From positions 656,895 to 720,894 of the forward strand of contig JAEUVX010000002.1 in NCBI GenBank assembly GCA_016786615.1: a stretch of DNA of 64,000 bases. The letters are read 5' to 3'. The stretch comes from Flavipsychrobacter sp. (GTDB lineage Bacteria > Bacteroidota > Bacteroidia > Chitinophagales > Chitinophagaceae). Both the position numbers and the translations under genes were made by a program. Under the pieces are notes generated by a model. It searched no databases, was not told where the DNA came from, and was given only the letters and a program-made list of their open reading frames with translations. Shown here piece by piece: positions 494 to 46,591 of the stretch (positions within the stretch are counted from its first letter, which is position 1; each line of letters begins with the position of its first letter).

Positions 494-1864
494 TTAAAGC
501 CAGCCGGAAGTATCTAATGGCAGTTTGATTTTTATAAACGTGCCCTTGTTCTCTTCAGAGCGCACTTCCAGTTCTCCGTTATGCAACCTGATAATGTTTC
601 TTGACAGCGGTAAGCCAATACCATATCCATTAAAACTGCCTGTATTTGACGCCCTGAAAAACGGTTCGTATATATAAGCAATTTCATCTTTAGGTATGCC
701 AATACCCTGGTCTTCTATAGATATTACAACTTTGGTATCAGTAGCCGCTATCGATACTTGTACCGGTTTATTCTTAGAATACTTGCAGCCATTGATTACG
801 ATATTAACCAATGCCAGTTCCAATAATTGCTGATTTCCTTTTATCATCAGTTTCTGCTGGTCTTCAGGCATCATACTCAGGTTAATGAATACTTTGTTCT
901 CCGGTATAATATTATCTACTGTCTCTTTCACAATATATATCACCTCATCCAGCCTCAGTGATGTGAACTCCTGTATCTTTCCGTTATAACCGGTTTGAGC
1001 AAGGTGCAGCAGGCTGCCTGTAATACGCTTCAACCGCTCTGCTTCATTTAGTATCACGCTCATAGAGCGGATGTAGTCTTCGGCATTTCGTTGTTTGCTG
1101 AGTGTATATTCAGATTCACCGATGATGGCTGTGAGTGGCGTATTGAGTTCGTGTGATGCATTGCTGATAAAATTCTTCTGTGTCTCAAAAGTGGCCTCAA
1201 GCCTGTCGAGCATATTGTTGAATGTAGCACTCAATTCAGATATTTCATCCTTACCATTACCTTCCGGCAGACGCAGGTGTAGCTGGCTGGCACTGATATC
1301 CTGTACTTTGTGCGTAATAATGCTGATAGGTTGCAAAATGATTTTTGAAAACCACAACCCGATGAGTAATGACAATAATATAGCCGATACTATGCTTACT
1401 ACTATTATAGTTCGTAGGTTGCGCAGGTAAGAATCAATGAATTCATTTTTAGCCGCTATAATAACAATGCTGTTTACATCACTGTCATTATACCTGTAAG
1501 CATAATAAAACATATTATGCTCTCTGTGCCTTGCAACACCATATATTTCTGCTTGTCTGTAGAACGATTTGCTAAGCGGTAGTTTTGCTATCAATCCTCT
1601 CTGTGAATCAACATCAAAAAAATACTCCCGCTCGTCAGGCAGCGTTTCCAGGTGCAGACGCCTGATTTCGTCATACGTACTCTTGCTCATAGCCTCTTTT
1701 TCAAAACGGCTCTTAGCAGCAATTACGGCACGTATCTCCAGCCTTTTATAAAAATCTTCAAACGTATTCTGGTTAACAAAATAATACTCCGTTACACTTA
1801 CAATCAGTACAATGCTGACAGTAAGCATAGCAAACAGTAATGCTATACGGTATTGTATTTTCAT
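494..1864 (-). CDS. Sensor histidine kinase (HAMP-HisKA-HATPase_c)
   Basis: This 456-aa inner-membrane kinase has TM1 at about residues 7-27, a periplasmic sensor of roughly 125 residues, and TM2 at about 152-172. A HAMP linker (about 173-228, ending in the DEISELSATFNNMLDRL signature) leads to the HisKA H-box NASHELNTP with phospho-acceptor His238, then an ATPase domain with DQGIGIP (G1) and GYGIGLPLSR (G2) boxes. It autophosphorylates and donates phosphate to the adjacent response regulator. The start is 4 nt after the regulator stop, so the two are co-transcribed. The layout resembles CusS/ArlS-type metal or envelope sensors, but the periplasmic domain matches no known ligand-binding fold by eye, so the signal is unknown. 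Confidence 0.93.
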   Translation of the reverse strand: MKIQYRIALLFAMLTVSIVLIVSVTEYYFVNQNTFEDFYKRLEIRAVIAAKSRFEKEAMSKSTYDEIRRLHLETLPDEREYFFDVDSQRGLIAKLPLSKSFYRQAEIYGVARHREHNMFYYAYRYNDSDVNSIVIIAAKNEFIDSYLRNLRTIIVVSIVSAILLSLLIGLWFSKIILQPISIITHKVQDISASQLHLRLPEGNGKDEISELSATFNNMLDRLEATFETQKNFISNASHELNTPLTAIIGESEYTLSKQRNAEDYIRSMSVILNEAERLKRITGSLLHLAQTGYNGKIQEFTSLRLDEVIYIVKETVDNIIPENKVFINLSMMPEDQQKLMIKGNQQLLELALVNIVINGCKYSKNKPVQVSIAATDTKVVISIEDQGIGIPKDEIAYIYEPFFRASNTGSFNGYGIGLPLSRNIIRLHNGELEVRSEENKGTFIKIKLPLDTSGWL

Positions 1865-1868
1865 TTGT

Positions 1869-2561
1869 CTATTCTTCTTTCAAAATATACCCCATACCCA
1901 CTACGGTATGTATCAGTTTACCTTCATTTTCCTTATCTATTTTTTTACGCAGGTAGTTTACATACACATCTACCACCTTTGTATTCATATTGAATTCTAT
2001 ACCCCATACTTTCTCCAGTATATCCATTCTTGATAAAAGACGTTTCTTATTCTCCAGCAGGTATTTCAGCAATCGGTATTCAGTTGCTGTCAGGTCTATT
2101 TTCCGTCCGGCTCTTGTTGCTGTTTTATCTTTAAGATTCAGTTCCAGATCTGCTATTCGCAGCTTTTCATCATCACCCTCTTCAGGTTCAGGGGTAGTTG
2201 CACCCCGGCGTATCATACTTCGCACACGCGCCAGTAATTCTGCCAGTTTGTATGGCTTCACCATGTAGTCATCCGCACCATAGTCTAGTCCGGCAACAAT
2301 ATTCTGTGTTGTACCAAGAGCTGTAAGCATTAGTATCGGCTTCATAATACCCGCCTCACGCACTTTCCGGCATATTTCCAAGCCGTTTACCCCAGGCAAC
2401 ATTATGTCCAGTATCATCAGGCTGTAATGACTGTTCAACGCCATATCCAGCCCTGTATTGCCATCTGGGGCAAGGCTAACAACATAGCCTTCTTCGCTGA
2501 GGCTGCGTATCAGCAATGACGCTACTGCTGCTTCGTCTTCTATCAATAAAATACTATTCAA
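1869..2561 (-). CDS. OmpR/PhoB-family response regulator
   Basis: The 230-aa protein has an N-terminal receiver domain (acidic pair ED at 8-9, phospho-acceptor Asp52 in LDIMLPGVNG, Lys in YMVKPY near 104). A C-terminal winged helix (about 130-228) contains the ATEYRLLKYLLENK and VDVYVNYLRKKID signatures of OmpR-type regulators. The start codon is TTG at 2559-2561; no ATG lies upstream in frame close by, and the receiver begins immediately (NSILLIEDE), so TTG is preferred. It forms an operon with the kinase downstream. Regulators of this class bind 11-bp phased direct repeats, which makes the array at 427-480 its most likely nearby target. Confidence 0.93.
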   Translation of the reverse strand: MNSILLIEDEAAVASLLIRSLSEEGYVVSLAPDGNTGLDMALNSHYSLMILDIMLPGVNGLEICRKVREAGIMKPILMLTALGTTQNIVAGLDYGADDYMVKPYKLAELLARVRSMIRRGATTPEPEEGDDEKLRIADLELNLKDKTATRAGRKIDLTATEYRLLKYLLENKKRLLSRMDILEKVWGIEFNMNTKVVDVYVNYLRKKIDKENEGKLIHTVVGMGYILKEE

Positions 2562-37847: not shown

Positions 37848-37904
37848 ATACCTAAGACAGCTAATAAACATTTAAAAGGTTGTTAATCCCCTGTTAAGTA
37901 TGCT

Positions 37905-37912
37905 TATTTTTG
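37905..37912 (+). promoter_or_regulatory. -7 element of the tsaC promoter
   Basis: TATTTTTG with TTA 19 bp upstream (37883-37885). The ATG is 44 nt downstream. Confidence 0.5.
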
Positions 37913-37956
37913 CCCGAATATCAAATTTAGGTATTAATCCTGACTTATAGATACAT

Positions 37957-40047: not shown

Positions 40048-41358
40048 TTAGTAGTTAGTAGAACCAGGGCTCCAGTTAGTCCAACCTTTAGTCCAGTCGT
40101 TACCACCTGTGATAGCACCCCATCCATTAACAGCAGCAGGAGAACCGGCTTGCGGAGCGAAATCAGGAGCAGTCAGGTTGAATGGATTAGTCAGTTTAGC
40201 ATCAGCAGCAGTTGCAACTTTGATACAACCATCAGCAGTAGCTTTAGTTTCTACCGCAGCAGCAGTTAAACCGTTAGTTACGTCAGAACCTACTTTGAAA
40301 GGAGCAGCAACAGCGTGTACGATGTTGTTCTTGAATTCAGAAGCACCTGTAGTGTAAGCATCAGCAGCAGCATTAGACTCTATTGAGAAACCACCTTTCT
40401 GGAAACCTATCAGGATAGATTTGGTAAGAGAGAACCTTACCGCACGACGCCAGCGGTTTGCAAAGTTGTGGTTTGCAGCAGTACCTGCAGCACCATTAGG
40501 GCCTACGAAAGTGAAGTTTGATAATACAGGGCGAGTGTATGGAGTAGCACTTGTACCAGAACCATCGTTATCAGCTTCGATACCATTGCCGGCATCACCA
40601 CCGTCAACAAATACAGGATCCCTTAGAGCGATACCACCTGTAATAGTACCAGTGTAACCAAAGTCAAAATCGAAATCATCATCAGCAGTAGAGAATGCAA
40701 TCAGGTTTTTACAGTTTACTGTACCACCGAAGAATTCATACGCATCATCATTACCCCAAGACACCATGATGTTTTCGATAGTAGTACCGTTACCAACACC
40801 ACCCAATGTAAGACCGTTGATTTCTGAACCCGGAGCAGCAGCGATACCTGCGAACTCGATACGAACATATTTCAACACACCTGAATTATCTGCAGCGTTG
40901 TTACCACCATAAGAACGGCTAACACCACCTTCGATAGTAGGAGGCGTAGAACGGTTTGTAGGTGCATCACCCAGGATGATGATACCACCCCAGTCACCCG
41001 GCTTGCGTTGTCCTGCAGGTAAACCTGAAGTGAAAACGATAGGACTGCTTGCAGTACCTTCAGCCATTATTTTACCACCTTTTTCTATAATCAAAGCGCC
41101 TTTATCAGAAACATCGCTTTTAATAATTGTACCTGCAGGAATTGTCAGTGTAGCACCCGCTTTTACATATACATAACCTTTCAGTGTGTAAGGTTTTGTA
41201 TTCTTCAGCGTACGGTTTGCTGAGATGTCACCAGAAATTGTATAATTTTCTGTGTCAGGAGTAGGCGTTGTAGTATCATCATCATCGTCATTGTTACATG
41301 ATCCGAATACTGCAATGCTACCTGCTAATAAGAGAGAGAATAGCTTTTGGAATTTCAT
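40048..41358 (-). CDS. Surface lipoprotein with right-handed beta-helix-like repeats
   Basis: The 436-aa protein has a lipoprotein signal (AVFGSC, Cys20), an Asp/Thr-rich linker, and a repetitive domain. That domain begins ISANRTLKNTKPYTLKGYVYVKAGATLTIPAGTIIKSD and continues with short strands and Gly/Asn turns, as in parallel beta-helix proteins. Homologues are often misnamed multidrug transporters in databases; no transporter features are present. It follows the TonB-receptor gene on the same strand, but a terminator and its own promoter separate them. The shared phased operator suggests joint function, perhaps as the receptor's surface partner. Confidence 0.82.
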   Translation of the reverse strand: MKFQKLFSLLLAGSIAVFGSCNNDDDDDTTTPTPDTENYTISGDISANRTLKNTKPYTLKGYVYVKAGATLTIPAGTIIKSDVSDKGALIIEKGGKIMAEGTASSPIVFTSGLPAGQRKPGDWGGIIILGDAPTNRSTPPTIEGGVSRSYGGNNAADNSGVLKYVRIEFAGIAAAPGSEINGLTLGGVGNGTTIENIMVSWGNDDAYEFFGGTVNCKNLIAFSTADDDFDFDFGYTGTITGGIALRDPVFVDGGDAGNGIEADNDGSGTSATPYTRPVLSNFTFVGPNGAAGTAANHNFANRWRRAVRFSLTKSILIGFQKGGFSIESNAAADAYTTGASEFKNNIVHAVAAPFKVGSDVTNGLTAAAVETKATADGCIKVATAADAKLTNPFNLTAPDFAPQAGSPAAVNGWGAITGGNDWTKGWTNWSPGSTNY

Positions 41359-41377: not shown

Positions 41378-41385
41378 CAAAAGTA
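41378..41385 (-). promoter_or_regulatory. -7 element of the beta-helix lipoprotein gene
   Basis: An exact TACTTTTG on the minus strand. The phased array ends exactly 5 bp upstream, replacing a -33 element. Confidence 0.7.
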
Positions 41386-41390
41386 CCGGT

Positions 41391-41434
41391 GTAGTATTAC
41401 GCCTATATTAAGGACAGATTAAGTGAATGTTAAG
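41391..41434 (-). promoter_or_regulatory. Four 11-bp phased TAA repeats (PhoB-like operator), lipoprotein gene
   Basis: On the minus strand four contiguous 11-mers read CTTAACATTCA, CTTAATCTGTC, CTTAATATAGG and CGTAATACTAC, each with TAA at positions 3-5. The format is that of PhoB/OmpR-type activator boxes. Confidence 0.65.
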
Positions 41435-41498: not shown

Positions 41499-44345
41499 TT
41501 ATTTACCGAACTTATAGTTGAAACCTAAAGTAAGTGTAGTACCTAAACGATATTGCTGGAATACCTGATCGTTACCTTTACCTGCTTTACTGCTTCCTTT
41601 CATGTAAGCATCTTTAGTATCTGTGTTCCAGTAGAAGGTAGTTGCCTGATTCAGCAAATCACCAACAGTCAGTTTCACTTCACCTTTATTTTTCAGAACA
41701 GCTTTGCTTATTTGCAGGTCAATAACATCACGCCCGTTTTCCCATGTAGTAGGTATTGTTGCATTACCTACGATAGCGATACGGTGTCCGATTCTGTTGT
41801 ACATAGCACTGAATGCGAAGCCTGTTTTAGGCATATTATACAATATTGAACCGTTGATCAGATAAGGAGATTGCCCCTGTAGCGGACGGTCTGTTTTTGT
41901 ACCTATAGTGTTGGTAGTACCAATGATATTAGAGGCATCTACCCTTGAATAGATATAAGAGAAGTTACCACCAACTATCAGGTTTTCCAGCCATTTTGCA
42001 TCGCTGATGAATGACATCTTCTTACGGAAATCTATTTCCAGACCTGCTGCATATGCAGATTTTGCATTCTGATAACCGAATATCAACAAATCGAGATTTG
42101 ACTGGTCATCCATTTTAGCCTCGATAGGGTTTTCAAAGTTTTTATAGAAAACACCGGCAGTAATTGCTTCGCCTGCACTCGGGTAATATTCGTACCTGAA
42201 ATCTGCATTGGTAATGTTAGCCCTTTTCAGATTCGGGTTACCTGTAATAGTCCAAACATTTTCAAAATCGATAAACTGGAATGGTGCAATCTCCCTGAAT
42301 TCCGGACGGTTCACCGTACGTGATGCAGATAAACGGAATTTAGACTTTTCCGTTGCATTATACGACAGGTTGAATGAAGGCAATACATCAGTAAATATAT
42401 CTTTCTTATTCAGTTTTGTACCCGAACGTAATGTTGCTTTAATCTTCTGCTCATAAGACTCTACACGCACACCCCATGTAAGGCGTATTTTTTCGCCAAA
42501 AGCGTTATCAAGCATCAAGAACCCTGCATTCAGCATACCATAAGCTTTGTAAGCATCTTCAGTACTTGTTATTTCATCTATCCTGAAACCTGATGCAGTA
42601 CCTATGTTTTTAGTATCGAATATTTCGCCTACAGGTGCGTGTGCTACTTCCGGTGCAGCAGAGAAACCGATTGGCGCATACTGGAATATCCTTGCACTGA
42701 ACTCTCTGTCTTTATATTGATAGAGATAACCTGCTTTTACAGATTGTTTCTGATTAAACAAATTAAATGGATAGCTTACGTGTGCATTACCACCTATGTT
42801 ATTATCTTTTTGTGTACTGAAGAAACGGCGGCTGTTTCTATCAACAACTTCAAAAGGGACAGACTCATTACTAACGGGTTCATCTTCTGTATTAAACGTA
42901 GTTGTCTTAGAGTAGAATGCACTTCGTAAATCTTTTTGTTGAGCATTCAGATTAGAATAACTCAGGTTCCAATATGCTTTCACATTCTTCTTACCAAAAG
43001 CATGATCACCTTCTAATTGTGCGTTATAAACTTGACGCTCAGAAGGGATTGAAGAAAATGCCTTTATCTGTTGCAGGTTACTTGTTGTATAGCCCTCACG
43101 TTGGTAATATGTGTTATCAAATATCTTGTTATACAGGTTTTTAAACCCGATTTTATGTTTACCGGTTACGTAAGAGAAGTTAGCCAATGCTGCCAGGTTT
43201 GAAGAATACCTGTATTGTTTTTCTGTGCTATACGTATGGATACGGCCTTGTTCATATTTACCACGGATAAACTCAGGTAATATTGTCTGGCTATTGCGGA
43301 GGTTTGCACCAATAACCGCACCGAATTTATCTCCGTTCTTCAAATGCGCCGCTTTACCAACAGATACATTGAAGTTTGTGTTAGGCATTGCACTTGTAGT
43401 TACTTCTTTATAGTTATTCGGTAGTGATTTTGCTATTTCATATTGTTTCTCAGGATTGCTGCTGCGCAGTTCATTGTAGTACGCCGCATTTTTACCAAAC
43501 CCTGAAGGAAGTGCATGGTCGTTACCCGGGAATGCCATATAAGACATACCAGTACGTTCATTACTTACAAAATCCTTTCCGGTACTTTGTGTATTGTAAC
43601 CTGCTGCAATACCTACATTCACAAAATCCCTTTCAGGTACATCTTTAGTAAGTACCGTTACGATACCACCTGCGAAATCGCCCGGCAAATCCGCTGAAGC
43701 AGTTTTGTTGATAATAATATTATCAATCAGGTTAGATGGTATAACATCGAAAGAGAATGCTTTCTTATCAGGTTCGGTACTTGGCATCAGCGCGTTATTT
43801 ACCATCGCCAGATTGTACCTGTCGCTCAAGCCACGGATAACAACATATTTACCATCCTTAACACTCGCACCGCTCACACGCTTTAATACCTCACCAGTAT
43901 TTTTATCCGGTGTGCGCTGTATGATATCAGCAGAAATACCGCTTGATACCGCCACACTGTTTTTCTGAATAGAATACAGTGCATTTACGGATTCTTTCTT
44001 TAAAGTACCGCGTACAACGACCTCTTTAAGTTGTTTTTTATTGTCTTCGGCAATTGCAACGTTCAATTCTGTTACTTCGCCTTCCTTTACCAATACATCG
44101 CTAATGCTTTTTTGCGTATATCCTATATACTTCACTTCTACTACATAGTCTCCTGTAGCTACATTGATTATGAAACGTCCGTCAACATCAGTTGCAGTAC
44201 CCAATCCCATTCCTTTTACTTCAACAGTAGCACCTATCAGGGGTTCTCCTGTCTTTTCGTCTGTTACTTTACCAGATATTTTGCCCCCGGCAATAGCTTG
44301 CAGCGAAATCAACAGGACAAACAATAAAGCATTAATTTTTAACAT
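41499..44345 (-). CDS. TonB-dependent receptor with carboxypeptidase-regulatory N-terminal domain
   Basis: The start at the ATG at 44343-44345 gives 948 aa with a signal peptide (MLKINALLFVLLISLQAIAG). A CarboxypepD_reg-like domain (KISGKVTDEKTGEPLIGATVEVKG...) occupies about 20-100, the plug about 125-245 (IIQRTPDKNTGEVLKRVSGASV, YVVIRGLSDRYN), and a 22-strand barrel ends in GTTLTLGFNYKFGK. It imports an unknown ligand across the outer membrane using TonB energy. No SusD gene follows, so it is not a typical SusCD pair. The phased operator upstream suggests nutrient control, with phosphate the first candidate. Confidence 0.94.
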   Translation of the reverse strand: MLKINALLFVLLISLQAIAGGKISGKVTDEKTGEPLIGATVEVKGMGLGTATDVDGRFIINVATGDYVVEVKYIGYTQKSISDVLVKEGEVTELNVAIAEDNKKQLKEVVVRGTLKKESVNALYSIQKNSVAVSSGISADIIQRTPDKNTGEVLKRVSGASVKDGKYVVIRGLSDRYNLAMVNNALMPSTEPDKKAFSFDVIPSNLIDNIIINKTASADLPGDFAGGIVTVLTKDVPERDFVNVGIAAGYNTQSTGKDFVSNERTGMSYMAFPGNDHALPSGFGKNAAYYNELRSSNPEKQYEIAKSLPNNYKEVTTSAMPNTNFNVSVGKAAHLKNGDKFGAVIGANLRNSQTILPEFIRGKYEQGRIHTYSTEKQYRYSSNLAALANFSYVTGKHKIGFKNLYNKIFDNTYYQREGYTTSNLQQIKAFSSIPSERQVYNAQLEGDHAFGKKNVKAYWNLSYSNLNAQQKDLRSAFYSKTTTFNTEDEPVSNESVPFEVVDRNSRRFFSTQKDNNIGGNAHVSYPFNLFNQKQSVKAGYLYQYKDREFSARIFQYAPIGFSAAPEVAHAPVGEIFDTKNIGTASGFRIDEITSTEDAYKAYGMLNAGFLMLDNAFGEKIRLTWGVRVESYEQKIKATLRSGTKLNKKDIFTDVLPSFNLSYNATEKSKFRLSASRTVNRPEFREIAPFQFIDFENVWTITGNPNLKRANITNADFRYEYYPSAGEAITAGVFYKNFENPIEAKMDDQSNLDLLIFGYQNAKSAYAAGLEIDFRKKMSFISDAKWLENLIVGGNFSYIYSRVDASNIIGTTNTIGTKTDRPLQGQSPYLINGSILYNMPKTGFAFSAMYNRIGHRIAIVGNATIPTTWENGRDVIDLQISKAVLKNKGEVKLTVGDLLNQATTFYWNTDTKDAYMKGSSKAGKGNDQVFQQYRLGTTLTLGFNYKFGK

Positions 44346-44363: not shown

Positions 44364-44371
44364 CAAAATTC
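44364..44371 (-). promoter_or_regulatory. -7 element of the TonB-receptor gene
   Basis: GAATTTTG on the minus strand, one mismatch from TAnnTTTG, with the phased array ending 5 bp upstream. Confidence 0.5.
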
Positions 44372-44376
44372 CGACT

Positions 44377-44431
44377 TCAATGTTACCAAAGCCTTAAGCG
44401 AATGTTACGCCAACATGAACCTTATGTTAAC
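44377..44431 (-). promoter_or_regulatory. Five 11-bp phased repeats (PhoB-like operator), TonB-receptor gene
   Basis: On the minus strand the contiguous 11-mers are GTTAACATAAG, GTTCATGTTGG, CGTAACATTCG, CTTAAGGCTTT and GGTAACATTGA. Four of five have TAA at positions 3-5, and the second has TCA. Confidence 0.65.
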
Positions 44432-44537
44432 TGAATATTAATTATAAACTGAGTGTAATCGAATTGTTGTTTATTTATTATTTAATTATTAAGCTAAAGG
44501 GCAATTATTAGTCCTGTTCAAAGGTTAATTTTGAGCT

Positions 44538-45710
44538 ATGAATACCCGTAGTTTGTTTTTGCAGCATGTAGCACAGACCTCGCCCGCACCAATAGGATTG
44601 CATATCACTGAAGCCAAAGGCTGTTATCTGCATGATGCTGATGGCAGAAAATACATTGACCTCATTGGTGGCATCAGCGTGTGCAACATAGGGCATAGCC
44701 ACCCTGAAGTAATAGCAGCTATCAAGGAACAGGCAGATAAATACCTGCACGTAATGGTTTATGGCGAAGTAATACAAAGCCCGCAGGTGCAATACGCCAA
44801 AATGATTACTGACCACCTGCCAGCCAACCTGAATTGCGTCTATTTTACTAATTCGGGAGCAGAAGCAACTGAAGGGGCTATTAAACTTGCAAGAAGGATT
44901 ACAGGCAAAACAGATATTGTAGCTGCCAATAAAAGTTATCACGGTGCTACACTTGGCGCATTGAGTGTTATGGGCGATGAATACTGGCGTAACGCATTTC
45001 GTCCTCTGATGCCGGGTGTATGGCATCATAATTATAACAGCGATGCCTTTATTAATGCTATTAATGAAAAAACAGCCTGTGTTATTATTGAAACAATACA
45101 AGCTGAGGCGGGCGTAATCAAGCCCCATATTGAATGGTTGAAGAGGCTTCGGGGAAAATGCAATGAAACAGGAGCAGTATTGATATTTGATGAAATTCAA
45201 TGCGGCTTCGGGCGTACAGGCAAACTGTGGGGATTTGAACATTTTAATGTTATTCCTGACATCATACTATTGGGCAAAGCATTAGGAGGGGGCATGCCTT
45301 TGGGGGCATTCATATCTTCTCACGAAAACATGTGGCAGCTAACTGACAATCCTGTATTAGGGCATATAACCACATTTGGAGGGCACCCGGTCAGTTGTGC
45401 AGCAGGTATGGCCGCGATGCAGGTATTGCTGGAAGAGGGTATTGTAAACGAAGTAGCAGCCAAAGAACAATTATTTAAAGAAATACTGGTACACCCTGCA
45501 ATAAAATCAATAAATAGCGCAGGGTTGCTGATGGCAGTAGAACTTGAAAACTCCGAAAAAGTACTCAGCACATTGAGCAAATGCCTTGAAAAAGGGCTTT
45601 TCTCCGACTGGTTTTTATTTGCACCTCATTGCATTCGCATTGCCCCACCCCTCAACATCAGCAAAGAAGAAATAGCTACTGCTGCAGATATATTGAAAGC
45701 TTGTCTATAA
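44538..45710 (+). CDS. Class III aminotransferase (acetylornithine/ornithine type)
   Basis: The 390-aa PLP enzyme has the class III pattern: VYFTNSGAEATEGAIKLAR, SYHGATLGALSVMG, LIFDEIQCGFGRTGKLWGFEH and Schiff-base Lys247 in DIILLGKALGGGMPLGAF. Substrates of the subgroup are ornithine, acetylornithine, GABA or similar omega-amines; no arginine genes are nearby to decide. It is a single gene ending at a bidirectional terminator. Confidence 0.92.
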   Translation: MNTRSLFLQHVAQTSPAPIGLHITEAKGCYLHDADGRKYIDLIGGISVCNIGHSHPEVIAAIKEQADKYLHVMVYGEVIQSPQVQYAKMITDHLPANLNCVYFTNSGAEATEGAIKLARRITGKTDIVAANKSYHGATLGALSVMGDEYWRNAFRPLMPGVWHHNYNSDAFINAINEKTACVIIETIQAEAGVIKPHIEWLKRLRGKCNETGAVLIFDEIQCGFGRTGKLWGFEHFNVIPDIILLGKALGGGMPLGAFISSHENMWQLTDNPVLGHITTFGGHPVSCAAGMAAMQVLLEEGIVNEVAAKEQLFKEILVHPAIKSINSAGLLMAVELENSEKVLSTLSKCLEKGLFSDWFLFAPHCIRIAPPLNISKEEIATAADILKACL

Positions 45711-45763: not shown

Positions 45764-46591
45764 CTATTCCAGTGTTATATCAGTAACCTCTCCATTGATG
45801 GTTAATGTAGCTTTATTATCGCAGCCCGGTCCACCATAATTCAAAACACGGGCAATACCGTGAGGTGGTATCAGCTCCACAACACCTTGCATAGGCCAGT
45901 CACAATTAGGATCTATCTCTATTGCCTGCTTGATACTGGTTGTATAAGCCGAGCCATCTGCACGGTATAAAGAACCCCAACCAGTTACCTCATACCTGTC
46001 ATCATAAACATTTCCTGAATATCCGCCAGCAGTATAAATACGTTTCTGCATAGAGGTACGTTTCGCTGTAATACCTTTCGGCGTCAGGAAAGTAACAGAG
46101 GTTTCAACACTATAATTCAATAAGCCCTGTTTATTCTTACCAAGGTTTGTCACAATTACAGAACCTTCAATCTTATTATCATTGATATAATAATTATCAA
46201 ATACTATAGTATGTACAGACCCGCTATCATTGTACCCGTTAGTGTATTTAGATATAATGCGACCACGCCTGTAACGTGCGTCTTTACAGAGACAATTTAC
46301 AGTACCGAAATCGACCCCCACTGTTTTAATAGCAGTATCTACCGAAACAGTTGCACATGAAGAACCCAACACATCTCCACCCTTCAGTGCTAAAGACCTT
46401 GCATGATACGCCTGATCTGTAAAAGTGATGGCATTGTTCGACAACTGCTCAAAACGGGCATACTCCGCCCCAAAGTCTTTATCTTCAATATAAGTTGCCG
46501 CTTTGTTATCATCTTTCTTACATCCTGCAATACCCGCAAGCAGCAATGTAGCTGAAGCGGCTGCAATTGATAAGAACCTTGTAAAACCCAT
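45764..46591 (-). CDS. Lipoprotein of unknown function
   Basis: The 275-aa protein has a lipoprotein signal (LLAGIAGC, Cys24) followed by KKDDNK, a typical Bacteroidota surface-lipoprotein export signal context. The body is beta-rich with conserved-looking segments SSCATVSVDTAIKTVGVDFGTVNCLCKDARYRRGRIISKYTNGY and a paired-Cys C-terminus (DPNCDWPMQGV, YGGPGCDNKATLTING). The family is seen in Chitinophagales as uncharacterised. It is a single gene with no obvious partner. Confidence 0.75.
   Translation of the reverse strand: MGFTRFLSIAAASATLLLAGIAGCKKDDNKAATYIEDKDFGAEYARFEQLSNNAITFTDQAYHARSLALKGGDVLGSSCATVSVDTAIKTVGVDFGTVNCLCKDARYRRGRIISKYTNGYNDSGSVHTIVFDNYYINDNKIEGSVIVTNLGKNKQGLLNYSVETSVTFLTPKGITAKRTSMQKRIYTAGGYSGNVYDDRYEVTGWGSLYRADGSAYTTSIKQAIEIDPNCDWPMQGVVELIPPHGIARVLNYGGPGCDNKATLTINGEVTDITLE

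Follow-up and report, generated by a model that had tools for sequence, protein, structure and literature searches.

A TonB-dependent receptor gene in the window, by which we mean the whole 64-kb stretch of DNA analysed, is preceded on the minus strand by an operator of six contiguous 11-bp units (44377..44442; ATTAATATTCA, GTTAACATAAG, GTTCATGTTGG, CGTAACATTCG, CTTAAGGCTTT and GGTAACATTGA), which we interpret, with a probability of about 0.88 and on the strength of sequence comparisons, as a Pho operator of the receptor promoter that would be bound by PhoB and would activate the receptor when phosphate is scarce. The same array recurs before phosphate genes of many related bacteria, which makes low phosphate the probable trigger of the receptor gene. 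An earlier note on this DNA had described five gapless 11-bp units on the minus strand (44377-44431), with TAA at unit positions 3-5 and once TCA, lying 5 bp from a -7-like box. All five units are present, with TAA in four and TCA in one, and the box is GAATTTTG (44364..44371, minus strand), 5 bp after the array and with one mismatch to TAnnTTTG, the -7 box of Flavobacterium sigma-A promoters (PMC9723704). The count of five was right as far as it went, but the array is longer, since a sixth unit, ATTAATATTCA (44432-44442), immediately precedes those noted earlier. The receptor itself (41499..44345, minus strand) carries the domains PF13715, PF13620, PF07715 and PF14905. Its listed TTG start (44366) was rejected because it falls within the -7 box, and the ATG at 44345, which comes 19 nt past the TTTG, probably serves as the start instead.

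In kind, this operator is a PHO box, a known class of site made of tandem 11-nt units (PMC4415409). It shares with the PHO boxes of PhoB and PhoP the head-to-tail 11-nt direct repeats with about seven better-conserved letters, and likewise the location ahead of the promoter core; Streptomyces is known to have complex operators (PMC4415409). Here six direct repeats follow each other in tandem and without gaps in a conserved register, about seven letters of each unit are conserved and the other four less so in the unit table of the homologous promoters, with T, A, A and the next CAT strongest and the unit ends weak, and the array lies upstream of the promoter core in the place of the upstream sigma element, so that an array-bound regulator may replace the -33 contact. 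What sets it apart from the described boxes is a [GC]TTAACATT-like unit, repeated six times in one register and 5 bp from a TAnnTTTG-type box. Among Bacteroidota regulators, PhoP of Riemerella anatipestifer is raised at phosphate starvation and has a DAP-seq motif whose most conserved letters are TTTAACA (PMC9603813). These letters are common to the array described here, whereas an 11-bp array or a register is undescribed in the available part of that paper, whose authors discuss redox and virulence and not phosphate genes, and liken the motif to that of ArcA (PMC9603813). PhoB of B. fragilis binds the pstC promoter, the accessible text giving no site layout (PMC3547664). PlcP is induced by phosphorus starvation, in a flavobacterium among others, and a figure marks Pho boxes ahead of plcP genes (PMC4796936); Caulobacter secretes a lipoprotein at low phosphate (PMC2996285). 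In the open-access literature searched we found neither a description of a multi-unit array with a fixed 5 bp to the -7 box in Bacteroidota nor one of its distribution across the phylum.

The array is conserved, and in one register, upstream of receptor homologues. Receptor matches at E<=1e-50 were present in 79 of the 99 genomes searched, our own included, and for the 30 best of them (again with our own) we took 260-bp upstream stretches and counted TAA in 11-bp steps from each TTTG. The mean best score was 4.3 of 6 units, at a single register to TTTG and with the 11-bp period; the 64 alternative settings tried, with periods of 9-13 and offsets of 3-15, scored at most 1.17, and shuffles 0.31. 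At least four units were found in 24 of the 30 promoters, as against none in 200 shuffle rounds. Below four units were L050, L052 and L053 (3 each), L056 (2), L055 (1), in whose promoter no array was found, and L031 (0), the locus of the window itself; this last one failed because its stretch had been taken from the erroneous TTG start, and it otherwise has 5 of 6 units. The lack of conservation in relatives that the earlier note had considered damaging was thus not observed. Counted from the promoter, each of the first three units has TAA in 26 of the 30 sequences and unit four in 12, and CAT is less marked in units two and four; this 22-bp alternation would fit one regulator dimer per two units.

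For genome-wide searches, a two-unit pattern with two mismatches proved useless in our own genome (147 matches, and 202 for the backward pattern) and was therefore replaced by a profile. This sequence-only profile, R1, was built from 20 homologous promoters, with our own genome excluded: 26 promoters were aligned, L052, L055 and L056 having been left out beforehand, and six were then dropped (four gapped, two with irregular far units). The same alignment read backwards served as the control, R2. R1 gives the window array 69.2 bits, with a genome-wide E of 6.5e-19. At E<=1e-3 it found 91 sites in 28 of 39 relatives, 12 of these sites being, by our own count, training promoters, while R2 found none in the same 39 genomes (best E 0.00196). 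Across the phylum, at E<=5e-4, R1 matched in 75 of 198 Bacteroidota genomes and R2 in none of the 198. Outside our own genome, 35 of the 106 phylum sites, one per genome, lie no more than 260 bp upstream of any of the 147 receptor matches used, and all 35 are on the receptor's strand; one of them, in genome G048, is a training promoter. Twenty longer loci from other families gave 21 R1 matches at E<=1, and in 10 of these loci a match lies just upstream of the receptor and on its strand, as read from the coordinates; R2 gave a single match in these 373 kb (E 0.00091), which lies elsewhere.

The genes that follow these sites in relatives belong largely to a phosphate regulon. We inspected 63 of the 91 R1 sites, for which the first downstream gene was readable in 54 cases, missing in 8 and without a stretch in one. 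Pfam searches over the 54 genes returned Plug (10), Metallophos (9), PhoX (7), Phytase-like (4), Pur_ac_phosph_N (2) and Porin_O_P (1), raw counts in which some proteins hold two families, and by eye 12 more of the 54 belong to the lipoprotein family. In Flavobacterium, R1 matched in 37 of 61 genomes (E<=1e-3), and 29 of 30 sites examined gave a downstream gene: Porin_O_P (9), receptors with Plug (7), PstS-type (4), PhoU_div (3), a PstC-type permease (1), a calcineurin-type phosphoesterase (1), an aspartyl-tRNA-synthetase-type gene (1) and three without a telling match, among which one looks lipoprotein-like and one porin-like by eye. Of 15 further phylum loci, 11 gave a gene; porin and receptor-type genes are among them, as are genes for a lipoprotein and a small exported protein. 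The array is thus common to phosphate-regulon genes of relatives, as PHO boxes are, and the suggestion of the earlier note that the genes behind further arrays would point to a Pho regulon, PstS and PhoX included, held for the relatives; in our own genome the candidate phoB-phoR and the PstS-like gene lack an array. In one family (f43; loci L268, L270, L271 and L275) well-formed arrays precede a gene whose small exported product has about 131-134 aa, possibly an unnoticed low-phosphate gene.

The linkage of the receptor and its lipoprotein neighbour to phoB-phoR points in the same direction. The pair is divergent from phoB-phoR, with an array between them, in F. glaciei, F. caseinilyticum, F. 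sandaracinum and a Flavobacterium MAG (R1 gives only 7.2 bits in the MAG), and the same arrangement was found in L202, a locus from another family; in two Confluentibacter genomes the pair lies near a porin and a transporter gene instead. The Flavobacterium arrangement matches Fjoh_0541-0549 of F. johnsoniae, the phoBR cluster PUSIV, in which a receptor with the domains pf07715, pf13715 and pf14905 is followed by a lipoprotein (PMC8115612). At low phosphate this receptor (Fjoh_0545) and lipoprotein (Fjoh_0546) have log2 fold changes of 8.02 and 9.91, with 8.59 for PlcP, 12.50 for PhoX and 3.06 for PhoB in the same data, and no induction of the phoBR-linked porin Fjoh_0542 (PMC8115612). The window pair likewise joins a receptor with these domains to a related lipoprotein, with 33% identity (receptor) and 43% identity (lipoprotein) to the F. 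glaciei pair beside phoB-phoR. Unlike PUSIV, it does not adjoin phoB-phoR, whose candidate genes lie on contig C5 while the pair lies on C6, and its lipoprotein has an array of its own; for the difference in contig we call it a homologous pair and not a PUSIV cluster. R1 found no site in three Flavobacterium clusters that combine a sigma factor with a receptor and a lipoprotein (L195, L196 and L197). Low phosphate induces a similar cluster of F. johnsoniae together with its sigma factor (PMC8115612), and control in such clusters may therefore run through a sigma cascade.

The lipoprotein gene (40048..41358, minus strand) is the next gene after the receptor and is preceded by a second operator of four units on the same strand (41391..41434; CTTAACATTCA, CTTAATCTGTC, CTTAATATAGG and CGTAATACTAC) and by the -7 box TACTTTTG (41378..41385, minus strand). 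With 26.1 bits and an E of 1.8e-5 this is the second-best R1 site of the genome. The protein matched no family in Pfam or NCBIfam, its predicted structure has a mean pLDDT of 49.8, and a comparison with solved structures gave no match at E < 0.05. Another predicted lipoprotein, without a Pfam match, is encoded at 45764-46591 (minus strand) of the window and adjoins an aminotransferase gene.

Elsewhere in this genome, R1 points (E 5e-5) to a protein of 632 aa that carries a type IX secretion tail and falls in no Pfam or NCBIfam phosphatase family. A PlcP-like metallophosphoesterase gene, followed by a glycosyltransferase gene, has a site before it at E 0.04 only. On contig C14 a site with E 0.002 adjoins a phosphate porin gene next to PhoU_div and PHO4 genes, with the array pointing away from the porin, that is, on the opposite strand, and the site at C11:137875 (E 5.7e-4) falls inside a gene. 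R1 gave no site ahead of the candidate phoB-phoR, of four other response-regulator regions or of the PstS-like gene. With PhoB and PhoR of F. glaciei the two candidate proteins share 53% and 39% identity, and both fall below the curated cut-offs. On its own, the phosphate evidence from this genome is suggestive, and it is the relatives that make the case. Two side observations concern the same genome: the porin and PhoU_div-PHO4 promoters have CCAAAATACATTTGCG in common (L083 7960-8145 and 9360-9515), and a weak R1 site (E 0.0018) precedes a polyhydroxyalkanoate synthase subunit gene (L082 6413-7909, minus strand).

Mechanistically, phosphate scarcity would lead the kinase PhoR to phosphorylate the OmpR-type regulator PhoB, which would then sit as dimers, head to tail, on the six units, at roughly one dimer per 22 bp and hence up to three. 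With 5 bp between the last unit and the -7 box, PhoB on the array would occupy the place of the upstream sigma contact, from which it could recruit sigma-A RNA polymerase and switch the receptor on; a model of PhoB dimers contacting sigma has been published (PMC3348028). The four-unit operator may act in the same way on the lipoprotein gene downstream of it. For this organism, PhoB binding, the number of dimers, the replacement of the -33 contact and the induction at low phosphate are what we infer from an array whose presence, register, conservation and recurrence before phosphate genes of relatives are directly observed. Activation by an OmpR-type regulator, with phosphate starvation as the first hypothesis, had been put forward in the earlier note, and the conserved arrays, the phosphate regulon of relatives and the linkage to phoB-phoR lend it support.

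Other readings of the array have to be weighed against the Pho operator. Its repeats could be a chance product of AT-rich intergenic DNA, and by a loose measure such repeats do turn up in shuffled sequence: four of five TAA with an 11-bp step occurred at least once in 37 of 200 shuffles, which makes this criterion by itself not convincing, and even five of six TAA with a period of 7 occur twice in the real 64-kb window. Five of six TAA with an 11-bp step, on the other hand, occur once in the window and in none of 200 dinucleotide shuffles, so that the equal frequency in shuffled sequence raised earlier as a possible objection does not hold for this stricter count. Together with the reversed-profile control, it is the conservation of the arrays that refutes chance, to which we give practically no credence. 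The array could also serve the divergent aminotransferase gene (44538-45710, plus strand), since it is situated between that gene and the receptor; this is very improbable, given that the array is in register with the -7 box of the receptor, that every receptor-adjoining site across the phylum is on the receptor's strand, and that in Flavobacterium the neighbour is phoB, with the receptor retained.

A more serious competitor for PhoB is another OmpR-family regulator with 11-bp repeat sites, for instance an ArcA-like redox regulator or the CopR-like one of the window, with phosphate being incidental. Similar spacing is usual for regulators of this family, the motif of Riemerella PhoP resembles that of E. 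coli ArcA (PMC9603813), and our genome matches the PhoB model ten times at E<=1e-20, always below the cut-off and once at 1869-2561 of the window. We nevertheless consider this unlikely, because phosphate genes follow the sites in relatives and, in Flavobacterium, the pair stands next to phoB-phoR. At 494-2561 (minus strand) the window encodes a response regulator closest to CopR/CusR-type models (below cut-off), together with a histidine kinase.

Returning to the Pho operator, we propose, at what we would call even odds, that it represents a phylum-wide Bacteroidota form in which up to three PhoB dimers bind in strict phase to a TAnnTTTG promoter without a -33 element, through alternating strong and weak half-sites, and whose best-conserved target is the pair of TonB receptor and lipoprotein and not a phosphate permease. 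If this is true, energised uptake across the outer membrane would be a leading step of phosphorus scavenging in Bacteroidota. The low-phosphate response of these bacteria is known from expression work, and the operator layout was absent from the literature that we found; an operator profile of this sort could make the regulon readable in uncultured Bacteroidota like this one, and it points to the receptor-lipoprotein pair as a main low-phosphate target. Finally, the window holds at 37851-37915 (plus strand), upstream of a Sua5/YrdC-like gene (37957), another stretch with four of five TAA at an 11-bp step, followed by TATTTTTG; R1 does not match it, and it is perhaps a chance product.
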